From contig CADCUU010000017.1 in the NCBI GenBank assembly GCA_902805995.1, forward strand, positions 1-9,482: a DNA stretch of 9,482 nt, in the 5' to 3' direction. Below, piece by piece: positions 359-8,724 of this stretch. Origin of the DNA: an uncultured Rubellimicrobium sp. GTDB lineage: Bacteria > Pseudomonadota > Alphaproteobacteria > Rhodobacterales > Rhodobacteraceae. Each line of letters begins with the position of its first letter. Position 1 is the first letter of the stretch. The notes beneath the pieces are model-generated. The model searched no databases, was not told where the DNA came from, and worked only from the letters and a program-made list of their open reading frames with translations. A program made the translations under genes and the position numbers.

Positions 359-500
359 GCCGCAGCGTGAGAGCAAGGAGTTGGGTGACCCTGGGAGTTT
401 TAAACCCCCATCTGGCGAAAGCATTCGGGGTAGTCCCTGAAGGATTACAGCAGGTTGCTGCCTGCCAACCAACCATCGTCACTTTCGCCTCACCACGTAC

Positions 501-516
501 TTAACTCTTCCTTAAC
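501..516 (+). promoter_or_regulatory. CtrA-type binding site upstream of radC
   Basis: The sequence TTAACTCTTCCTTAAC matches the full CtrA consensus TTAA-N7-TTAA(C): half-sites at 501-504 and 512-515, exactly 7 nt between them, and the trailing C. TTAA is rare in this GC-rich window, which makes a chance pair at this spacing unlikely. It lies 22 nt before the radC ATG. CtrA is the cell-cycle/motility response regulator of Alphaproteobacteria. In Rhodobacterales it is known to control motility, gene transfer agent and competence/recombination functions. Binding here is inferred from sequence. Confidence 0.7.
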
Positions 517-538
517 TATCTTCTGTCAGTTCTGGGCC

Positions 539-1297
539 ATGTCGAATCCACCCGGCCTGTCCGATTCCCTTGCCCTGTTCCCGACCGATGAGGCCGTGCC
601 GGTCGCACTCGCGCCGGGCAAGCTCCCGTCCTATATCACCGACCACCGCGCCCGCCTGCGTGCCCGCTTCAGCGAGGCCGGTGCCCAGGCCCTGCCTGAC
701 TACGAACTGCTTGAGCTTCTCCTGTTCCGCATCATCCCGCGTCAGGACGTGAAGCCCTTCGCCCGCCGGCTCCTCGACGAATTTGGCGACATCGCGACCG
801 TCATGTCGGCCCCGGTCCCACGGCTGGAACAGGTCCCCGGCGTCGGTCCCGCCGTGGCGCTGGAACTCAAGGTCGTGGAGGCCGTCGCCCACCGGATGGC
901 GCGGGCCAAGGTCCTGCGCCGCCACGTGGTCTCAAGCTGGGCGCAGCTTCTCGACTACTGCCACACCGTCATGGCGCATCAGGAGCAGGAGCAGTTCCGC
1001 GTCCTCTATCTCGACCGCAAGAACGTCCTCATCGCCGATGAGGAACAGGGCCGCGGCACGGTGGATCACGTGCCCGTCTACCCGCGCGAGGTCGTAAAGC
1101 GGGCGCTTGAACTCAACGCTTCGGCCATGATCGTGGTGCACAACCACCCATCTGGCGACCCGACCCCGTCCCGCGCCGATATCGACATGACCGCCCAGAT
1201 CGAGGCCGCGGCCAAAGCCTTGGGCCTCGTGCTCCACGACCACCTCATCATCGGACGGGAGCGGGAGTTGAGCTTCCGGGCCGAGGGGTTGCTCTAG
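539..1297 (+). CDS. radC: RadC family JAB/MPN-domain protein
   Basis: This is a 252-residue RadC homologue. Residues about 30-125 form the UPF0758 N-terminal region. It has the conserved run LPDYELLELLLFR and a helix-hairpin-helix DNA-binding motif (VPGVGPAVALELK, about 99-111). The C-terminal half is a JAMM/MPN+ metal-binding domain with HNHPSGDPTPSRAD (His201, His203, Asp214) and an upstream acidic candidate at Glu150/152. RadC is named a DNA repair protein, but its biochemical role is unsettled; links to recombination and natural transformation have been proposed. ATG539 was chosen because an upstream in-frame TTG (455) would put the CtrA box inside the gene. No Shine-Dalgarno sequence precedes ATG539. 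The gene stands alone: dnaJ is 215 bp upstream, and the neighbour downstream is convergent with 25 bp between stops and no clear terminator. Confidence 0.93.
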   Translation: MSNPPGLSDSLALFPTDEAVPVALAPGKLPSYITDHRARLRARFSEAGAQALPDYELLELLLFRIIPRQDVKPFARRLLDEFGDIATVMSAPVPRLEQVPGVGPAVALELKVVEAVAHRMARAKVLRRHVVSSWAQLLDYCHTVMAHQEQEQFRVLYLDRKNVLIADEEQGRGTVDHVPVYPREVVKRALELNASAMIVVHNHPSGDPTPSRADIDMTAQIEAAAKALGLVLHDHLIIGRERELSFRAEGLL

Positions 1298-1322: not shown

Positions 1323-2912
1323 CTAACCGCTGACCCAAAGCTCCACCCGGCGGTTCACTTTCGCGCTCCAAGGGCCCTCGCCCTCGCCATCGCAGCCAAT
1401 GGGAAGCGCCTCGCCAAAGGCATGGACACGCAGGCGCACCCCCTCAGGCAGCTGGCCGCCCAGCGCATCCAGCAAAGCGTCCCTCACCGCCTCCGCCCGG
1501 CGCAGCGACAAGGCGCGGTTTTCCTCGGCCGGCCCCCGTCCGTCGGAAAAGCCTGCCAGAACCAGGGTGCGCCCACTGTAGCGTCCTTCCGCGACCTCAT
1601 ACGCGAGCCGCAGGACCAACCCGCGTGACACCGGGTCGAGCGCCGTCCCGTTCCCAAAGCGAAAGGTGGTGGACTGACGCGTGAAGGGTCCAAGAACCCG
1701 GACCAGCCGCTGCAACTCCCGAAGCGGAACCTCGGGTCCCGCCCCACGGATCGCAGCGGCCAGACGCTCACCCTGCTCGGCCCAGGGCACCGGCACCGCT
1801 TCGGTTCCTACAAGGCCCGCGCGCCGCAGCACCAACTGCGCCTCAGGCGTGGCCAGGAAATCGACAAAGGCTTGCGCCTCCGGGGCCAGCCGCCGCATGG
1901 GCTGGAGCAGCGCCAAAGGCACCGTCAGTGGATAGTCCCCGGCCCGCACCGCCGATGGACGCGGCACCCAAGGCAGCCGGCACTGGCCGACCAGAGCCAT
2001 CGGCTGCGCCTCGCCAAAGCTTTCGAAGGGCAGGATGCCGAGGGCCTGGGGATCATCCGACAGAGCCTGCCGCAACGCCGCCTCGTCGTCATGGCGGATC
2101 ACCTGCGGTGAAAGCTCCCGTCCCGTAGCGTCCAGAACCTCCGTGACAAAGGCCTGTGCCAGCGCCGACTCATCCGGCCCCAGATGCGCCCGAACCGGAA
2201 CGTCCTCGCCGCCCAGATCGGCCCAACTCGTCACCTCGCCCGCATAGACGCGCGCCAGATCCTCCAGAGTGATGCGCCCCACCCGCTGCCCGGGCCCGGT
2301 CACCGGCACGAGCGCCCCCTGCGCCAGGAGCCTCAACCGAAGCTCCCCTATCCCGCCCAGGCCCGCCGCGATGAGCCGTTCAGTCTCCTGCGGCAGTGGT
2401 GCGCGGGCCAGCATCGCCAGATCGGCCTCGTTGGAAAGGAGGTCTGCAATGCCGTCCGCGGTGGTGCTCAGCCGGAGGGACAGGCGCAGCACTTCCCGGC
2501 CATCGTCACGCAGGATGTAGGCACCGGCCCGCTCCAATTGCCAGCCCTGAGCGGCCGCAAAGCCCTCCACGAGGGCGGGCAACAGCACCTCGCCCAGACC
2601 CCCGTCCCCGGACAGCCGCATTTCCGGCACGAAGTCCTCGGCCTTCGGGCAGGCCGCCCCCTCACAAGCCATGGCTTGGGTGTCGAGCGTCAGTTCGCCG
2701 GTCTCGGTCTCAACCCGCAGGAAACGCCCGTCGAAGCCGAGAGCGCGCCCCTGGATCCGCAGGCCCGGCGCGGTGAGCCGGACCTCACCCTTCGCCAGCG
2801 GCGCCTCCAACTCAGCCAATGTCTCAGCGGGCGGCGCGTCCTGCGCCAAGCCCGGGCCCGCAGCAAGGAGAAGCCCCGCCAAAGCCCCCCAGCAGAGTTT
2901 CACGTGAAACAT
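1323..2912 (-). CDS. Exported phosphate-binding-protein-like / OmpA C-terminal fusion protein
   Basis: This 529-residue protein is probably periplasmic and tethered to peptidoglycan. A signal peptide covers residues 1-23 (basic residue K5, a Leu/Ala-rich core, cut likely after GLA). Residues about 40-90 form a small beta-rich segment with a Cys pair (83, 88). Residues about 98-375 resemble the PstS-type substrate-binding fold (LSGDGGLGEVLLPALVEGF, then ADLAMLARAP, ITLEDLARVYAGEVTSW, and the closing FVDFLATPEAQLVLRRAG). Residues about 415-529 form an OmpA-like domain with the peptidoglycan-contact motif GFSDGRG (Asp457), LSLRRAEAV and a terminal NRRVE. Start choice: GGAAGG at 2925-2920 sits 7 nt before ATG2912, and the signal peptide starts there. 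Such fusions occur in Rhodobacteraceae; the ligand is not known and phosphate is only a guess. The gene lies 47 bp behind secA on the same strand. Its codons 1-6 lie in a parS site. Confidence 0.88.
   Translation of the reverse strand: MFHVKLCWGALAGLLLAAGPGLAQDAPPAETLAELEAPLAKGEVRLTAPGLRIQGRALGFDGRFLRVETETGELTLDTQAMACEGAACPKAEDFVPEMRLSGDGGLGEVLLPALVEGFAAAQGWQLERAGAYILRDDGREVLRLSLRLSTTADGIADLLSNEADLAMLARAPLPQETERLIAAGLGGIGELRLRLLAQGALVPVTGPGQRVGRITLEDLARVYAGEVTSWADLGGEDVPVRAHLGPDESALAQAFVTEVLDATGRELSPQVIRHDDEAALRQALSDDPQALGILPFESFGEAQPMALVGQCRLPWVPRPSAVRAGDYPLTVPLALLQPMRRLAPEAQAFVDFLATPEAQLVLRRAGLVGTEAVPVPWAEQGERLAAAIRGAGPEVPLRELQRLVRVLGPFTRQSTTFRFGNGTALDPVSRGLVLRLAYEVAEGRYSGRTLVLAGFSDGRGPAEENRALSLRRAEAVRDALLDALGGQLPEGVRLRVHAFGEALPIGCDGEGEGPWSAKVNRRVELWVSG
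2896..2911. other. parS: Chromosomal parS (ParB-binding) site inside the start of the OmpA-fusion gene
   Basis: On the minus strand the sequence is TGTTTCACGTGAAACT, 15 of 16 bases identical to the widespread chromosomal parS consensus TGTTTCACGTGAAACA. The core GTTTCACGTGAAAC (2897-2910) is a perfect 14-bp palindrome. parS sites are loaded by ParB-CTP clamps and mark the origin region for segregation by ParA and SMC. Here the site supplies the codons for MFHVK plus the start of the next, so it is both a centromere element and the N-terminus of a signal peptide. It is the only CACGTG with parS-like flanks in the window: those near 327, 923, 1067 and 6771 lack them. ParB binding is inferred from sequence. 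Confidence 0.85.
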
Positions 2913-2926
2913 TCTCGGCCCTTCCA

Positions 2927-2959: not shown

Positions 2960-5755
2960 TCAGAACGCCCCGTGGCAGTGCTTGAACTTCTTGCCCGACC
3001 CACAGGGGCAAAGGTCGTTGCGGCCCGGATTGCCCCAGGTCGAAGGGTCCTCAGCGTTGAAGCCGGGGATCGGCTCGGACGGAACAGGCTCCAGCTCGGC
3101 GATGCCTGCTGCGAAGGAGACCGTCGCCGGGGCAGCCCGAACGGGGCTCGGGGCCGGTGCGGCAGGTGCCTGGGGCACGGGCGGGGGTGCCGCCTCCGCC
3201 TGCCCTGGCGCGGCAGCGGCCATCTGGGCGCGCCGCTGGGCGATCAGGTTCTGCATCATCGCCTGGCTTTCCTCGGCCAACATGGGCCGCAGGGCGGACA
3301 ACTTCTGTGTCACCTCTTCGCGGAGACCGTCGAGCAGCTTCTCGAAAAGCTGGAAGGACTCGGTCTTGTACTCGTTCAGCGGATCGCGCTGCGCATAGCC
3401 GCGGAAGCCCACGACCGACCGCAGATGCTCCAGCCGCAGGAGATGCTCGCGCCACTTCCCGTCGATCGTCTGGAGGAGAACCTGCTTCTCCACGTTCCGC
3501 ATCGTGTCGGGACCGAAGGCCGCTTCCTTCTCGGCCATGAACGTGTCCGCGGCCTCAATGATCCGCTCGCGGATCGCGTCCTGATCCACACCCTCCTCGG
3601 CCGCCCAGGCCACGATCGGCAACTCCTGCCCCAGCTTCAGCTTGACGCTTTCGGCCAAGGCGTCGACCTGCCACTGCTCCGGATAGCTCCGCGGCGGCAT
3701 GAAGTCGTCCACGAGGTCCTGCACGACCTGATGGCGCATGTCGGCCACGATCTCGTTGACGTCCCTGGTTTCCATGATCTCCCGGCGCTGGCCGAAGATG
3801 ACCTTGCGCTGGTCGTTCATGACGTCGTCGAACTTGAGGAGCTGCTTGCGGATGTCGAAGTTGCGCCCCTCGACTTTCGCCTGCGCCCGCTCCAGCGACT
3901 TGTTCACCCAGGGATGGACGATGGCCTCACCTTCCTTCATCCCGAGCTTCGACAAGACGCTGTCCAGCCGCTCGGACCCGAAGATCCGCATGAGGTCATC
4001 CTCCAGCGACAGGAAGAACGAGGACCGTCCCGGATCGCCCTGCCGGCCCGACCGCCCGCGAAGCTGGTTGTCGATGCGCCGGCTCTCGTGCCGCTCGGTG
4101 GCGAGGACATAAAGCCCGCCTGCCTGCTTCACCCGCTCCTTGTCGGCGGCGTGCTCCGCTTCGATGCGCGCGCGCACCGCCGCCGGATCGGCCTCGGGAT
4201 CGGCCGCGAGCGCTTCCAGCACCTTCATCTCGACGTTGCCGCCGAGCTGGATGTCGGTGCCCCGGCCGGCCATGTTCGTCGCGATGGTGACGGCCCCGGG
4301 CTGCCCGGCCTCGGCCACGATCTGGGCCTCGCGTTCGTGCTCGCGGGCGTTCAGGACGTTGTGCGGGATGCCCTCCTTCTTGAGGAGGTTCGACAGCATC
4401 TCCGACTTTTCGATGCTAGTCGTGCCCACCAGGATCGGCTGGCCCTTCTCATGCGCCTCGCGGATCGCCTTGACGATGGCCTCGTACTTGTCGCGAGCAG
4501 TGCGGTAGACGGCGTCGTGCTCGTCCTTGCGGGCCACGGGGCGGTTCGTGGGGATCTCCACCACGCCCAGCCCATAGATCTCGCGGAACTCGTCGGCCTC
4601 GGTCAGGGCCGTGCCGGTCATGCCCGCGAGCCTGCTGTAGAGGCGGAAGTAATTCTGGAAGGTGACGGACGCGAGCGTCACGTTTTCGGGCTCGATCTTC
4701 ACGCCTTCCTTGGCCTCGATGGCCTGGTGCAAGCCGTCCGACAGGCGGCGGCCGATCATCATGCGCCCGGTGAACTCGTCGATCAGCACGACCTTGCCGT
4801 CGCGGACGATGTAGTCCTTGTCCCGCTGGAACAGCTTGTGCGCCCGCAGGGCCTGGTTGACATGGTGCACCAGCGTCGTGCTCTCGGGATCATAGAGCGA
4901 CTGCGTCTCGGGCAGCAGCTCCGCGCCACGAAGCAACTCCTCCAGCACGTCGTTGCCTTCGTCCGTGAAGGTCACGTTGCGCGACTTCTCGTCCACCGAA
5001 TACCCCGCCTCGGGGATCGACGGGATCAGCGTGTTCACCTTCACATAAAGCTCGGACCGGTCCTGCGCCGGGCCCGAGATGATGAGCGGCGTGCGCGCCT
5101 CGTCCACGAGGATGGAGTCCACCTCGTCCACGATGGCGTAGTTGTGCCCCCGCTGGTTCATCTGCGCGAGGTCCGACTTCATATTGTCACGCAGGTAGTC
5201 GAAGCCCAGCTCGTTGTTAGTCGCGTAGGTGATGTCGGCCTGATAGGCCTCCCGCTTCTCGGGCTCGGGCTGGTGGGGGACGACGACGCCCGTGGTCAGG
5301 CCCAGCATCGCGTAGACCTTGCTCATCCACTCCGCGTCGCGGCGGGCAAGGTAGTCGTTCACTGTCACCACATGCACGCCCTTGCCCGCCAGAGCGTTCA
5401 GCGTCGCCGGGAAGGTCGCGACAAGGGTCTTGCCCTCGCCCGTCTTCATCTCGGCGATGTTGCCCTGGTGAAGGAAGATTCCGCCCATGAGCTGCACGTC
5501 GAAGGCCCGCAGGCCTAGGGCCCGCCGCGCCGCCTCGCGCACCAGCGCGAACGTCTCGGGCAGCAGCGCATCCAGATCCTCGCCGCCGCGCGCCCTTTCA
5601 CGCAGGGCCGCCGTCGCGTCCTTCAGGCCCTGGTCGGTCAGCGCCTTGACCTGGCCCTCCCGCGCGTTGATCGCGTCCACCAGCGGGCGGACCGCCTTGA
5701 CCTTGCGGTCGTTCGGGGTGCCGAAGATGCTCCGCGCGAGCGTGCCCAAGCCCAT
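2960..5755 (-). CDS. secA: Protein translocase ATPase subunit SecA
   Basis: SecA is the ATP-driven motor that pushes unfolded preproteins through SecYEG. The ORF is complete at 931 residues, slightly longer than E. coli SecA (901). Motifs: Walker A MKTGEGKT (103-110), DEAD-type DEVD (210-213), [16 protein letters not shown] (about 177-191), [20 protein letters not shown] in the preprotein cross-linking/NBD1 part, AGMTGTA, then NBD2 with [10 protein letters not shown] and the arginine-finger region [10 protein letters not shown]. The helical scaffold contains [21 protein letters not shown] Pro/Ala-rich linker leads to the zinc-binding C-tail [14 protein letters not shown] (Cys916, Cys918, Cys927, His928), the SecB/phospholipid-binding site. 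Start: GAGGA at 5768-5764 lies 8 nt before the ATG and the N-terminus [20 protein letters not shown] fits the family. It is divergent from the parvulin gene. I see no SecM-like arrest-peptide ORF in its leader. Confidence 0.99.
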
Positions 5756-5915: not shown

Positions 5916-5953
5916 CGCGGCCCACCTTGGCCGCCCGATCAAGGCTTCGTTCC

Positions 5954-6970
5954 ATGCTGAAACAGCTCATGCTCTTGCAGACCGCCTCGGTCCTCGCCCT
6001 GGCTCTGGCCCTGCCCGCTGCGGCCCAGGACACGACCCAGGATACGGCGACCGAGGAAGCCCCGGCCGCGACGACCGAACAGGCCCCCGCGGGAGCCGAG
6101 GCCGAGGCCACCGCCGTCCCCGACGGAGAGACCACCGACGCCCAGGCCACCGACTCCGAAGCCGCAGCCGGTGAAGCCGCCACCCCCGCCCAGGACGTCA
6201 CCCGCGACACCGTCGTGGCTACCGTGAACGGCACGAACATCACTCTGGGCGAGGTCATCGTCGCCGCGACCCAGCTCCCCGCGCAATACCAGCAGCTCCC
6301 CCCCGACGTGCTCTTTTCCGGCGTGACCGACCAGCTCATCCAGCAGGAGCTCCTGGCCCAGTCCGCCACCGGAGAGCCCGCGAGCCTCGCCATCGCGCTC
6401 GCCAACCAGCGCCGCTCCATCCTCGCCAACGACGTGATCGGGGATGTCGTCGTCTCCGCCGTGACCGAGGAGGCCGTCCAGGCCGCCTATGACGCGCAGT
6501 TCGCCAACGTCGAGCCCGCGACCGAGTGGAACGCCTCCCACATCCTCGTGGGAACCCAGGAGGAGGCCCAGGCCGTCATCGACCGCCTGAACGCCGGAGA
6601 GGACTTCGCCGCCGTCGCGCAGGAGGTCTCCACCGACACCGGCTCCGGCGCCCAGGGCGGCGAGCTCGGCTGGTTCGGCGCTGGTATGATGGTGCCCGAG
6701 TTCGAGCAGGGCGTATCCGGCCTTGAGCCCGGCGCCGTCTCCGAGCCCATCCAGTCGCAGTTCGGCTTCCACGTGATCCGTCTCAACGAGACGCGGCCCC
6801 AGGAAGCCCCCGCGCTGGATGAGGTCCGCAGCGAGATCGAGGCCCAGGTTCAGCAGGAGGCCATCGAGGCCCGCATCGTCGAGCTCGAATCCGCCGCCGA
6901 GGTCACTCGGCCCGAGCCCGGCCAGTTCGACCCCGCCGTCCTGTCCGACACCTCGCTCCTCGAGGACTGA
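5954..6970 (+). CDS. Periplasmic parvulin-type peptidyl-prolyl cis-trans isomerase
   Basis: This 338-residue exported foldase is of the PpiC/SurA/PrsA type; it isomerises X-Pro bonds and helps outer-membrane or periplasmic proteins fold. Residues 1-24 are a signal peptide (LALALALPAAA, then QD). Residues about 25-84 are a low-complexity Ala/Thr/Glu/Asp segment with almost no hydrophobic residues, an acidic linker. Residues about 87-180 form a SurA-N-like helical region starting VATVNGTNITLGEV. Residues about 190-282 form the parvulin domain: NASHILVGTQEEA with His197, GGELGWFGAGMMVPEF, and GFHVIRLNETR with His273. A further helix follows. ATG5954 is preferred over the upstream in-frame TTG5927 because the signal peptide starts there and AAGG (5941-5944) lies 9 nt upstream. 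It is followed by argJ after 1 nt, so they are probably co-transcribed. Exact orthology (surA, ppiC or prsA) is not decided. Confidence 0.93.
   Translation: MLKQLMLLQTASVLALALALPAAAQDTTQDTATEEAPAATTEQAPAGAEAEATAVPDGETTDAQATDSEAAAGEAATPAQDVTRDTVVATVNGTNITLGEVIVAATQLPAQYQQLPPDVLFSGVTDQLIQQELLAQSATGEPASLAIALANQRRSILANDVIGDVVVSAVTEEAVQAAYDAQFANVEPATEWNASHILVGTQEEAQAVIDRLNAGEDFAAVAQEVSTDTGSGAQGGELGWFGAGMMVPEFEQGVSGLEPGAVSEPIQSQFGFHVIRLNETRPQEAPALDEVRSEIEAQVQQEAIEARIVELESAAEVTRPEPGQFDPAVLSDTSLLED
6962..6966 (+). promoter_or_regulatory. Ribosome binding site deciding the TTG start of argJ
   Basis: GAGGA lies 5 nt before TTG6972, within the last codons of the parvulin gene. It supports this rare start codon over the internal and upstream alternatives, and implies translational coupling across the 1-nt gap. 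Confidence 0.6.
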
Positions 6971-6971
6971 C

Positions 6972-8189
6972 TTGGCCGCGAAGACTTCGCCGCTGGCGCC
7001 CGCCCGCTTCCCGGACCTCCCCTCCATCGGGGGGGTCCGTTTCGCATCCCATGCCGCCGGCGTCCGCTACAAAGGCCGCACCGACGTGATGCTCGCCCTC
7101 ATGGACGACGCCACCGTCGCCGGCACCTTCACCCGCTCGGCCACGCGCTCGGCTCCGGTCCGTGACGGCCAGCGCAAGCTGGCACTCTCCGAAGGGGGTG
7201 CCGTGGCCTTCCTCGTCAATTCCGGCAACTCCAATGCCTTTACCGGGCGTGTGGGCGAAGAGGCCGTCCAAGGCATCTGCACCGCCGCAGCCCAGGCCCT
7301 AGGCCTGCCCGAGGAGCGGATCTTTACCTCCTCCACCGGCGTCATCGGGGAGCCCCTGCCCTGGCAACGCATCGCTGACGCGATCCCCGCGCTCCAGGCA
7401 TCGCTTGACCCCGCCGGGATCGAGGCCGCCGCCCGCGCCATCATGACCACCGACACCTTCCCCAAGGGTGCCTCGGCCAAGGTGTCGCTCCCGGGCGGCA
7501 CGGTGCGGATCGCCGGCATCGCCAAAGGTTCGGGTATGATCGCGCCCGACATGGCTACGATGCTCGTCTACGTCTTCACCGATGCAAAGGTCGGCCGCCA
7601 GGAGTTGCAGGAGATCGTCTCCGCCGCCACCGACCGGACCTTCAACCGCATCACGGTGGACAGTGACACCTCCACCTCCGACACGCTGCTGATGGCCGCG
7701 ACCGGTGCCTCCGGCGTGGATGCCGCTGGCCAGCCGGAGTTCGTGGCGGCGGTGGAACGGGTCTTCCTCGATCTCGCCCAACAGGTCGTCCGCGACGGTG
7801 AAGGGGCTACCAAGTTCGTGGAGGTCCGCGTGACCGGCGCCGCCTCGGAACCTGACGCCCATCGGGTCGCCATGGCCATCGCGAACTCCCCCCTCGTCAA
7901 GACCGCCATCGCGGGCGAGGACGCGAACTGGGGTCGCATCGTCATGGCCGTCGGCAAGTCGGGGGCCGAGGCCGACCGCGACCGCCTGTCGATCCGCTTC
8001 GGCGACATCACGGTGGCCAAGGACGGCTTCCGCAGCCCGAATTACTCTGAGGACGCCACCTCCGCCTATATGAAACAGCAGGAGTTGGTCATCGGCGTGG
8101 ACCTGGGGCTCGGCCAAGGGGCCGCGACTGTCTGGACCTGCGATCTCACCCACGGCTACATCGACATCAATGCCGACTACCGTTCCTGA
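6972..8189 (+). CDS. argJ: Bifunctional ornithine acetyltransferase / N-acetylglutamate synthase ArgJ
   Basis: ArgJ transfers the acetyl group from N-acetylornithine to glutamate, running the cyclic arginine pathway; many family members also use acetyl-CoA. The protein has 405 residues, normal length. It is made as one chain that cleaves itself at the ATML motif: here GMIAPDMATML, with Thr196 as nucleophile and new N-terminus of the beta chain. Other family blocks are GVRYKGRTDVMLAL, LVNSGNSNAFTG, SSTGVIGEPLP, ANWGRIVMAVGKSG and the C-terminal CDLTHGYIDINADYRS. Start: TTG6972 gives an N-terminus AAKTSPLAPARFPDLP like that of close homologues, 1 nt after the parvulin stop and behind a GAGGA. 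An upstream reading frame continues open into the parvulin gene but has no homology-like content. Monofunctional versus bifunctional activity cannot be told from sequence alone. Confidence 0.97.
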   Translation: MAAKTSPLAPARFPDLPSIGGVRFASHAAGVRYKGRTDVMLALMDDATVAGTFTRSATRSAPVRDGQRKLALSEGGAVAFLVNSGNSNAFTGRVGEEAVQGICTAAAQALGLPEERIFTSSTGVIGEPLPWQRIADAIPALQASLDPAGIEAAARAIMTTDTFPKGASAKVSLPGGTVRIAGIAKGSGMIAPDMATMLVYVFTDAKVGRQELQEIVSAATDRTFNRITVDSDTSTSDTLLMAATGASGVDAAGQPEFVAAVERVFLDLAQQVVRDGEGATKFVEVRVTGAASEPDAHRVAMAIANSPLVKTAIAGEDANWGRIVMAVGKSGAEADRDRLSIRFGDITVAKDGFRSPNYSEDATSAYMKQQELVIGVDLGLGQGAATVWTCDLTHGYIDINADYRS

Positions 8190-8724
8190 CCCCATGGACC
8201 AAGGGCTCCAGCCTTCGGGGACGCGCTCACCGGACGCGTCCCCGGACAATTCCCGCAACGCCGAAGTCCCGCCCAGCGAGGGTGTCGGAGGTGCCGCCTC
8301 TGGGTCCAGGGAAGGCGCCTCCCCGGTCCGCCTGCTTCTCGTCTCCGCCGTGGCGCTGATCGATCCGGAAGGACGCGTCCTCCTCGCCCAGCGTCCCGAG
8401 GGCAAGAGCATGGCAGGTTTATGGGAGTTCCCGGGCGGCAAGGTCGAATCCGGCGAGACGCCCGAAGCCGCCCTGATCCGCGAACTGCACGAGGAACTGG
8501 GCATCGACACTCATGCCTCCTGCCTGGCCCCACTCACCTTCGCGAGCCACGCCTACGAGTCCTTCCATCTCCTGATGCCGCTGTTCGCCTGCCGCCGCTG
8601 GACCGGAACCCCGCGGCCGAGGGAGGGACAGACCCTCGCTTGGGTGAAGGCGCGCGACCTGAAGTTTTACCCAATGCCGCCCGCTGACATCCCGCTGATC
8701 CCGATCCTGCGCGACTGGTTGTAG
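8170..8724 (+). CDS. mutT: MutT-type Nudix hydrolase, (deoxy)nucleoside triphosphate pyrophosphohydrolase, with N-terminal extension
   Basis: MutT hydrolyses oxidised nucleotides such as 8-oxo-dGTP to the monophosphate and so prevents mutations. In a 184-residue reading, the Nudix box GX5EX7REUXEEXGU is complete at 90-112 (Gly90, Glu96, Arg104, Glu105, Glu108, Glu109). It is preceded by VLLAQRPEGKSMAGLWEFPGG, typical of MutT (quoted with its first residue at about 70). The C-terminal block FYPMPPADIPLI is also typical. Normal MutT would begin near residue 53 (VRLLLVSAVALI), but no ATG, GTG or TTG lies there. The candidates are ATG8170, overlapping argJ by 20 nt, and ATG8194, 4 nt past the argJ stop. 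Neither has a Shine-Dalgarno. The extra 45-52 residues are Pro/Ser/Gly-rich, look disordered, and their DNA holds a strong hairpin. Translation is probably coupled to argJ. The Nudix call is firm, the start is not. Confidence 0.9.
   Translation: MPTTVPDPMDQGLQPSGTRSPDASPDNSRNAEVPPSEGVGGAASGSREGASPVRLLLVSAVALIDPEGRVLLAQRPEGKSMAGLWEFPGGKVESGETPEAALIRELHEELGIDTHASCLAPLTFASHAYESFHLLMPLFACRRWTGTPRPREGQTLAWVKARDLKFYPMPPADIPLIPILRDWL
8214..8246 (+). repeat. Strong inverted repeat between argJ and the MutT core
   Basis: GGGGACGCG (8217-8225) and CGCGTCCCC (8235-8243) are perfect complements around a 9-nt loop. The flanks TTC/GGA add up to three more pairs, one of them G-T. No T run follows, so it is not a classical terminator. 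It could stabilise the upstream mRNA, attenuate mutT, or hinder ribosomes. Confidence 0.65.

Follow-up and report, generated by a model that had tools for sequence, protein, structure and literature searches.

A predicted parS site overlapping the predicted start codon of a putative envelope gene beside secA in a likely Rubellimicrobium genome

In this study we focus on a 9,482-nucleotide stretch of bacterial DNA (the window) in which a parS-like palindrome lies across the beginning of a gene. We consider it probable, at roughly 0.8, that this palindrome is one predicted ParB-loading site of a dispersed, likely origin-proximal array, that its TG completes the predicted ATG of an envelope gene, and that the next 12 bases are read as the residues FHVK. 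The case for the site in the window rests on a comparison of the secA locus within the genus. The stronger result is a start of the same kind at gidA, common to most of the bacterial family, together with its reuse at pstS.

Results

The palindrome and the predicted start of the envelope gene

The palindrome AGTTTCACGTGAAACA agrees with the chromosomal parS consensus TGTTTCACGTGAAACA at 15 of 16 bases, with a single mismatch. The plus strand at 2896-2912 reads AGTTTCACGTGAAACAT, and the minus strand from 2912 downwards reads ATG TTT CAC GTG AAA CTC. As the preliminary description had proposed, the TG of the parS match completes the ATG (minus strand 2912-2910), the reading frame confirms that one stretch of bases gives both the start codon and FHVK, and GGAAGG is present 7 nt upstream (Table 1). 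Two other in-frame starts lie nearby, GTG at codon 4 and TTG at codon 11; because the GTG stands 16 nt from GGAAGG, the ATG is the better fit to the spacing and is retained as the predicted start.

This is the only parS match in the window at up to three mismatches, with 0.01 expected from shuffled sequences (2 of 200 shuffles had a match). A genome-wide list of parS-like sites had been suggested as a check in the preliminary description: the assembly that holds the window (G000; 3.03 Mb in 504 contigs, 85% complete, 5.1% contamination, window contig of 9.5 kb) contains five sites at up to two mismatches, three of them perfect and two with one mismatch, and a reversed control pattern gave no match in the same scan of the same genome. 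The palindrome is very likely a real parS, at which binding of ParB is predicted.

Table 1 Features of the window around the parS-like palindrome
Feature	Position	Strand	Basis or remark
radC-like gene	455..1297	+	convergent; other boundary of the interval keeping the site
Envelope gene, 529 aa; PBP_like_2 (149-357) and OmpA (422-505)	1323..2912	-	domain search
Sec signal peptide MFHVKLCWGALAGLLLAAGPGLA, likely	2844..2912	-	translation, judged by eye
Palindrome AGTTTCACGTGAAACA	2896..2911	none	sequence scan; conserved island beside secA within the genus
Codons 2-5, TTT CAC GTG AAA (FHVK)	2898..2909	-	inside the palindrome
Predicted ATG start	2910..2912	-	TG coincides with the first TG of the palindrome on the minus strand
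GGAAGG, possible ribosome-binding site	2920..2925	-	7 nt upstream of the ATG; read from sequence
secA	2960..5755	-	931 aa; 48 nt from secA stop to palindrome

MFHVK forms, as judged by eye, the basic n-region of the likely Sec signal peptide. The gene on one side is taken to be secA, and the one on the other side is presumably radC-like, from the motif HNHPSGDPTPS. Further frames, at 5927-8724, presumably resemble argJ and genes for a MutT-type hydrolase and a parvulin-type isomerase. Across the family the order secA, envelope gene, radC recurs widely: of 30 loci, the window's included, 26 show the secA end and 27 show radC.

A homologue search with the window protein gave 93 proteins, of which P0001-P0014 are 70-100% identical, P0001 being the window's own entry and P0002-P0014 being of metagenomic origin. 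P0013 is devoid of its N-terminus, hence 13 near homologues were compared: seven (own entry included) begin with [MV]FHVK and six with other starts. Residues 2-5 are identical in the seven, and the subsequent signal-peptide residues differ. Among P0015-P0093 (79 proteins, some N-terminally cut) none starts with FHVK. Outside the genus, 29 orthologous loci from a longer list of orthologues were read, and none has a parS match at up to three mismatches within about 1.5 kb. The codons of the window gene itself carry less weight since TTT is not rare there (about 0.57 of Phe codons, smoothed), the chance of the spelling TTT CAC GTG AAA being 0.014.

The site beside secA within the genus

The genus, whose name is likely Rubellimicrobium, was represented by G000 and seven other genomes (G001-G007), with SecA proteins 82-89% identical to that of the window. 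A parS site lies 31-57 nt past the secA stop in five of the eight (G000, G002, G003, G004 and G007). Among those five genomes the 16-base site is 89% identical, as against 30% for the 30+30 flanking bases in an ungapped comparison. In G001 the secA-radC interval also holds a site, which is separated from secA by 1.2 kb and from the radC-like frame by 32 bp; near secA, neither G005 nor G006 has one. Moreover, a scan of named genomes for a secA end followed by the palindrome core at 32-62 nt returned four records, all from Rubellimicrobium (R. aerolatum, R. rubrum, R. roseum and R. arenae), which are likely G004, G003, G007 and G002, respectively.

A search for the PBP_like_2-OmpA gene did not find it in any of the seven other genomes: there was no match in G002, G003, G004 and G006, and weak matches at the OmpA-like end in G001, G005 and G007. 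In G002, G003, G004 and G007 the site is kept beside secA without the envelope gene, and the end of radC comes directly next, so that the absence of the gene from this interval is not due to genome incompleteness. Since the secA-gene-radC order is common in the family, the envelope gene was likely lost in Rubellimicrobium lineages while parS stayed. Judging from these alignments of sequence, the DNA site at the secA locus of the genus is conserved and the coding overlap is optional, because four genomes without the gene keep the site there.

parS sites and parB in the genus and the family

Each genus genome contains three to nine sites at up to two mismatches. On single contigs, G001 has nine sites over 200 kb and G002 five over 201 kb; G007 has six over 170 kb and one on another contig, G004 four over 98 kb and one elsewhere, and G005 three within 49 kb. 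In G003, G006 and G000 the sites fall on more than one contig. Among 65 other genomes of the family, scanned at up to one mismatch, 53 have exactly two sites and four have none; in four of seven other-genus genomes with at least three sites, the whole set lies within 5 kb.

A parB gene lies at most 4 kb from the gidA site in all seven other genus genomes, and a ParB search of the window's own assembly, which is 85% complete and has gidA on a 3.5-kb contig, gave no hit. The distance from the secA site to the gidA/parB site is 47-50 kb in G002, G004 and G007 and 94 kb in G001. By analogy with these relatives, the window contig may be origin-proximal.

Starts of gidA and pstS on parS

The coding overlap has a counterpart at gidA. 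Of 43 family genomes covered, 41 gave a real match to gidA, and the start was read in each of them. An in-frame start codon (ATG, GTG or TTG) lies on a site with at most one mismatch in 37 and opens an FHVK-type N-terminus. These comprise all 30 best-scoring loci (eight from the genus, 22 from other genera) and seven of the 11 other family loci. An overlap in every gidA of the family is rejected by the remaining four, among which FHVKH is still in frame in G022 and G030, where ACG or GGG precedes it, and the starts of G024 and G029 are unrelated. The overlap looks like a family-level trait, because none of nine loci from other families of the class has a gidA start on parS; a site flagged at one of these loci (L207) precedes a stop and is not a start. 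In the first 30 loci TTT and CAC occur in all and the full TTT CAC GTG AAA in 28, with 0.63 of 30 expected from each gene's own codon usage.

Five of the eight genus genomes (G002, G003, G004, G006 and G007) have a pstS gene that starts with MFHVK on parS, after AGGAG; in G006 the His codon is CAT, which costs one base of the palindrome. The full-length pstS of the window's genome starts with MSSMKL and has no parS (best 6 mismatches in the locus), and in G001 and G005 the pstS genes are all more distant ones. Elsewhere in the five pstS genes AAA accounts for none of 28 Lys codons and TTT for 5 of 91 Phe codons, and both are used at the start in all five; like those for gidA, these figures are descriptive, as related sequences are not independent. 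An MFHVK start is found in 19 of the 120 PstS homologues listed (7999 matched). Two of the listed homologues, P0101 and P0104, have the N-termini MSFIQHPATALALML and MFHVKHPATALALML, which look as though one had arisen from the other by overwriting of codons 2-5 in place, in either direction.

Start overlaps account for three of 17 grouped site positions, with p about 7e-7 at an assumed rate of 1 per 1000 or 6e-4 at 1 per 100, and for two of 16 (p about 1e-4 or 0.011) when the window's own position is left out; the 17 positions are our own grouping of the sites, one pair being split by differing orientation. For the other-genus genomes with at least three sites (seven genomes, 16 of 24 sites), a filter script returned a gidA overlap (L187) and an MFHVKH frame of 222 codons (L180); its length and codon filters drop true overlaps, such as the gidA start of G036, and its output is no count.

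Reading frames of the palindrome

The three frames of the consensus palindrome translate as FHVK, as VSRET and as CFT followed by a stop; after one base, the FHVK frame opens with NTG. This explains why parS tolerates coding DNA and why gene starts suit parS. Downstream of gidA in other genera, 15 second sites were tallied from the 16 of 22 gidA loci parsed: 13 are read as VSRET, one as VSCET (L175) and one lies elsewhere (L178). The VSRET and VSCET sites sit near the start of a frame that we take to be gidB-like.

Further sites were observed in or near other frames. In G000, G004 and G007 parS is read as VSRET inside a presumably MFS-like transporter frame. The variant TGTTCCACGTGAAACG lies inside a long frame at L094 and L114 (near 4001), its GTGGAAC spelling opening the stop frame (RFTWN). 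In G001 (L120, near 4001) a gene presumed to be NUDIX-like from a motif appears to take its in-frame stop (CFT*) from parS, and on another contig of G007 (L109, near 4001) 58 bp separate a perfect parS from a gene that presumably resembles gltB.

An mRNA hairpin at the start codon was rejected, folding being no more stable than in shuffled sequences, with z 0.42 for the window gene, 0.25 and 0.36 for two pstS starts and 0.52 for gidA.

Discussion

The preliminary description had placed the site under double constraint, from segregation and from the protein N-terminus. The synonymous bases held at the parallel gidA and pstS starts speak for this view, but the constraint is lopsided, since the site survives without the gene in four of the seven other genus genomes. 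A full double constraint at the envelope gene is indeed rejected, as the gene was found in none of those seven and the site stands beside secA in four. Orthologues that keep the protein and lose the palindrome, with no parS nearby, had been named as evidence against the proposal; such cases occur outside the genus (the 29 loci) and not inside it. The site has likely been kept for segregation, with the beginning of the protein fitted around it.

We would picture ParB, with CTP, loading at the palindrome and sliding outward as a clamp, and the site helping chromosome segregation like other parS sites. The coding overlap is likely an accommodation, in which the frame of parS would supply a start codon and a short basic N-terminus, FHVK being basic and tolerated where a signal peptide begins. 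If ParB affects expression of the envelope gene at all, this is likely secondary. The suggestion that ParB could spread to secA is doubtful as regards the promoter, because the secA start lies 2.84 kb from the site; for Caulobacter ParB, spreading around one site reached no further than about 2 kb when measured in E. coli as host (PMC5815017).

The alternatives differ in what would hold the bases in place. A chance match, for which the sole point is the one mismatch to the consensus, has next to no probability and is rejected, given the 0.01 matches expected in the window and a site at the same place in five genomes with diverged flanks. It is highly improbable that the bases are kept for the protein start itself or for a hairpin in the mRNA: seven of the 13 near homologues retain FHVK, but the fold of the start region is no more stable than its shuffles, TTT and AAA in the first codons of pstS and gidA depart from usage in the remainder of the gene, and four genomes still have the palindrome in non-coding DNA, which largely refutes this explanation. 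The role of the palindrome in ParB binding is a prediction from sequence, which leaves room for another DNA-binding protein as its user; we consider this very unlikely, since the 14-base core is the same as in the gidA sites, which adjoin parB in 7 of 7 relatives, and as in the known chromosomal parS consensus (PMC4409726).

Regulation of the envelope gene by ParB, as the reason why the site stays at the start codon, appears unlikely as well. Local regulation is possible, because the ParB of Pseudomonas aeruginosa acts as a repressor of the promoters next to parS3 and parS4 (PMC5521831). Furthermore, the three start overlaps exceed random placement under the assumed rates, and two of the three overlapped genes encode PBP_like_2 binding proteins. 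Against this, the site overlaps a start codon and not a mapped promoter, and the four genus genomes that retain the site without the gene speak against regulation as what keeps it. A broader proposal, that in this family the centromere repeatedly writes N-termini (at gidA for most members, and in Rubellimicrobium also at pstS and the envelope gene) and that ParB clamps on start codons couple segregation to the expression of phosphate-binding envelope proteins, is tentative and in our view rather unlikely.

On the preferred reading, in which parS is kept for segregation and the coding sequence is accommodated to it, a centromere element likely shapes the beginnings of proteins at several genes, and some N-terminal residues may reflect segregation and not protein function. 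The overlap provides a natural setting for asking whether expression changes when a ParB clamp loads at a start codon, and the dispersed array of the genus, set against the two sites of most relatives, lends itself to comparative work on why parS arrays spread.

Literature searches on parS with start codon, coding sequence, gidA or gidB listed titles and abstract openings that describe no parS start codon, and nothing relevant was found on Rubellimicrobium together with parS. Among known systems, the window site is closest to the chromosomal parS of ParABS (Spo0J/ParB type, consensus TGTTNCACGTGAAACA), with which it shares the same 15 of 16 bases, the occurrence of several sites per chromosome and, in relatives, parB beside one of them. 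It differs in being known from sequence, with binding predicted, and in the arrangement of the sites, four genus genomes spreading them over about 100-200 kb as against exactly two sites in 53 of 65 other family genomes. Palindromes in protein-coding DNA are likewise described in the portions used here of reports on Caulobacter, where parS lies within essential or costly genes (PMC5815017), and on Thermus, where it lies within gidB (PMC4409726); unlike these, the window site itself forms the predicted start codon and the beginning of a signal peptide. The parS3 and parS4 sites of Pseudomonas aeruginosa also adjoin gene beginnings but are intergenic and near promoters (PMC5521831), whereas the window site overlaps a predicted start codon, where regulation would be conceivable by analogy.
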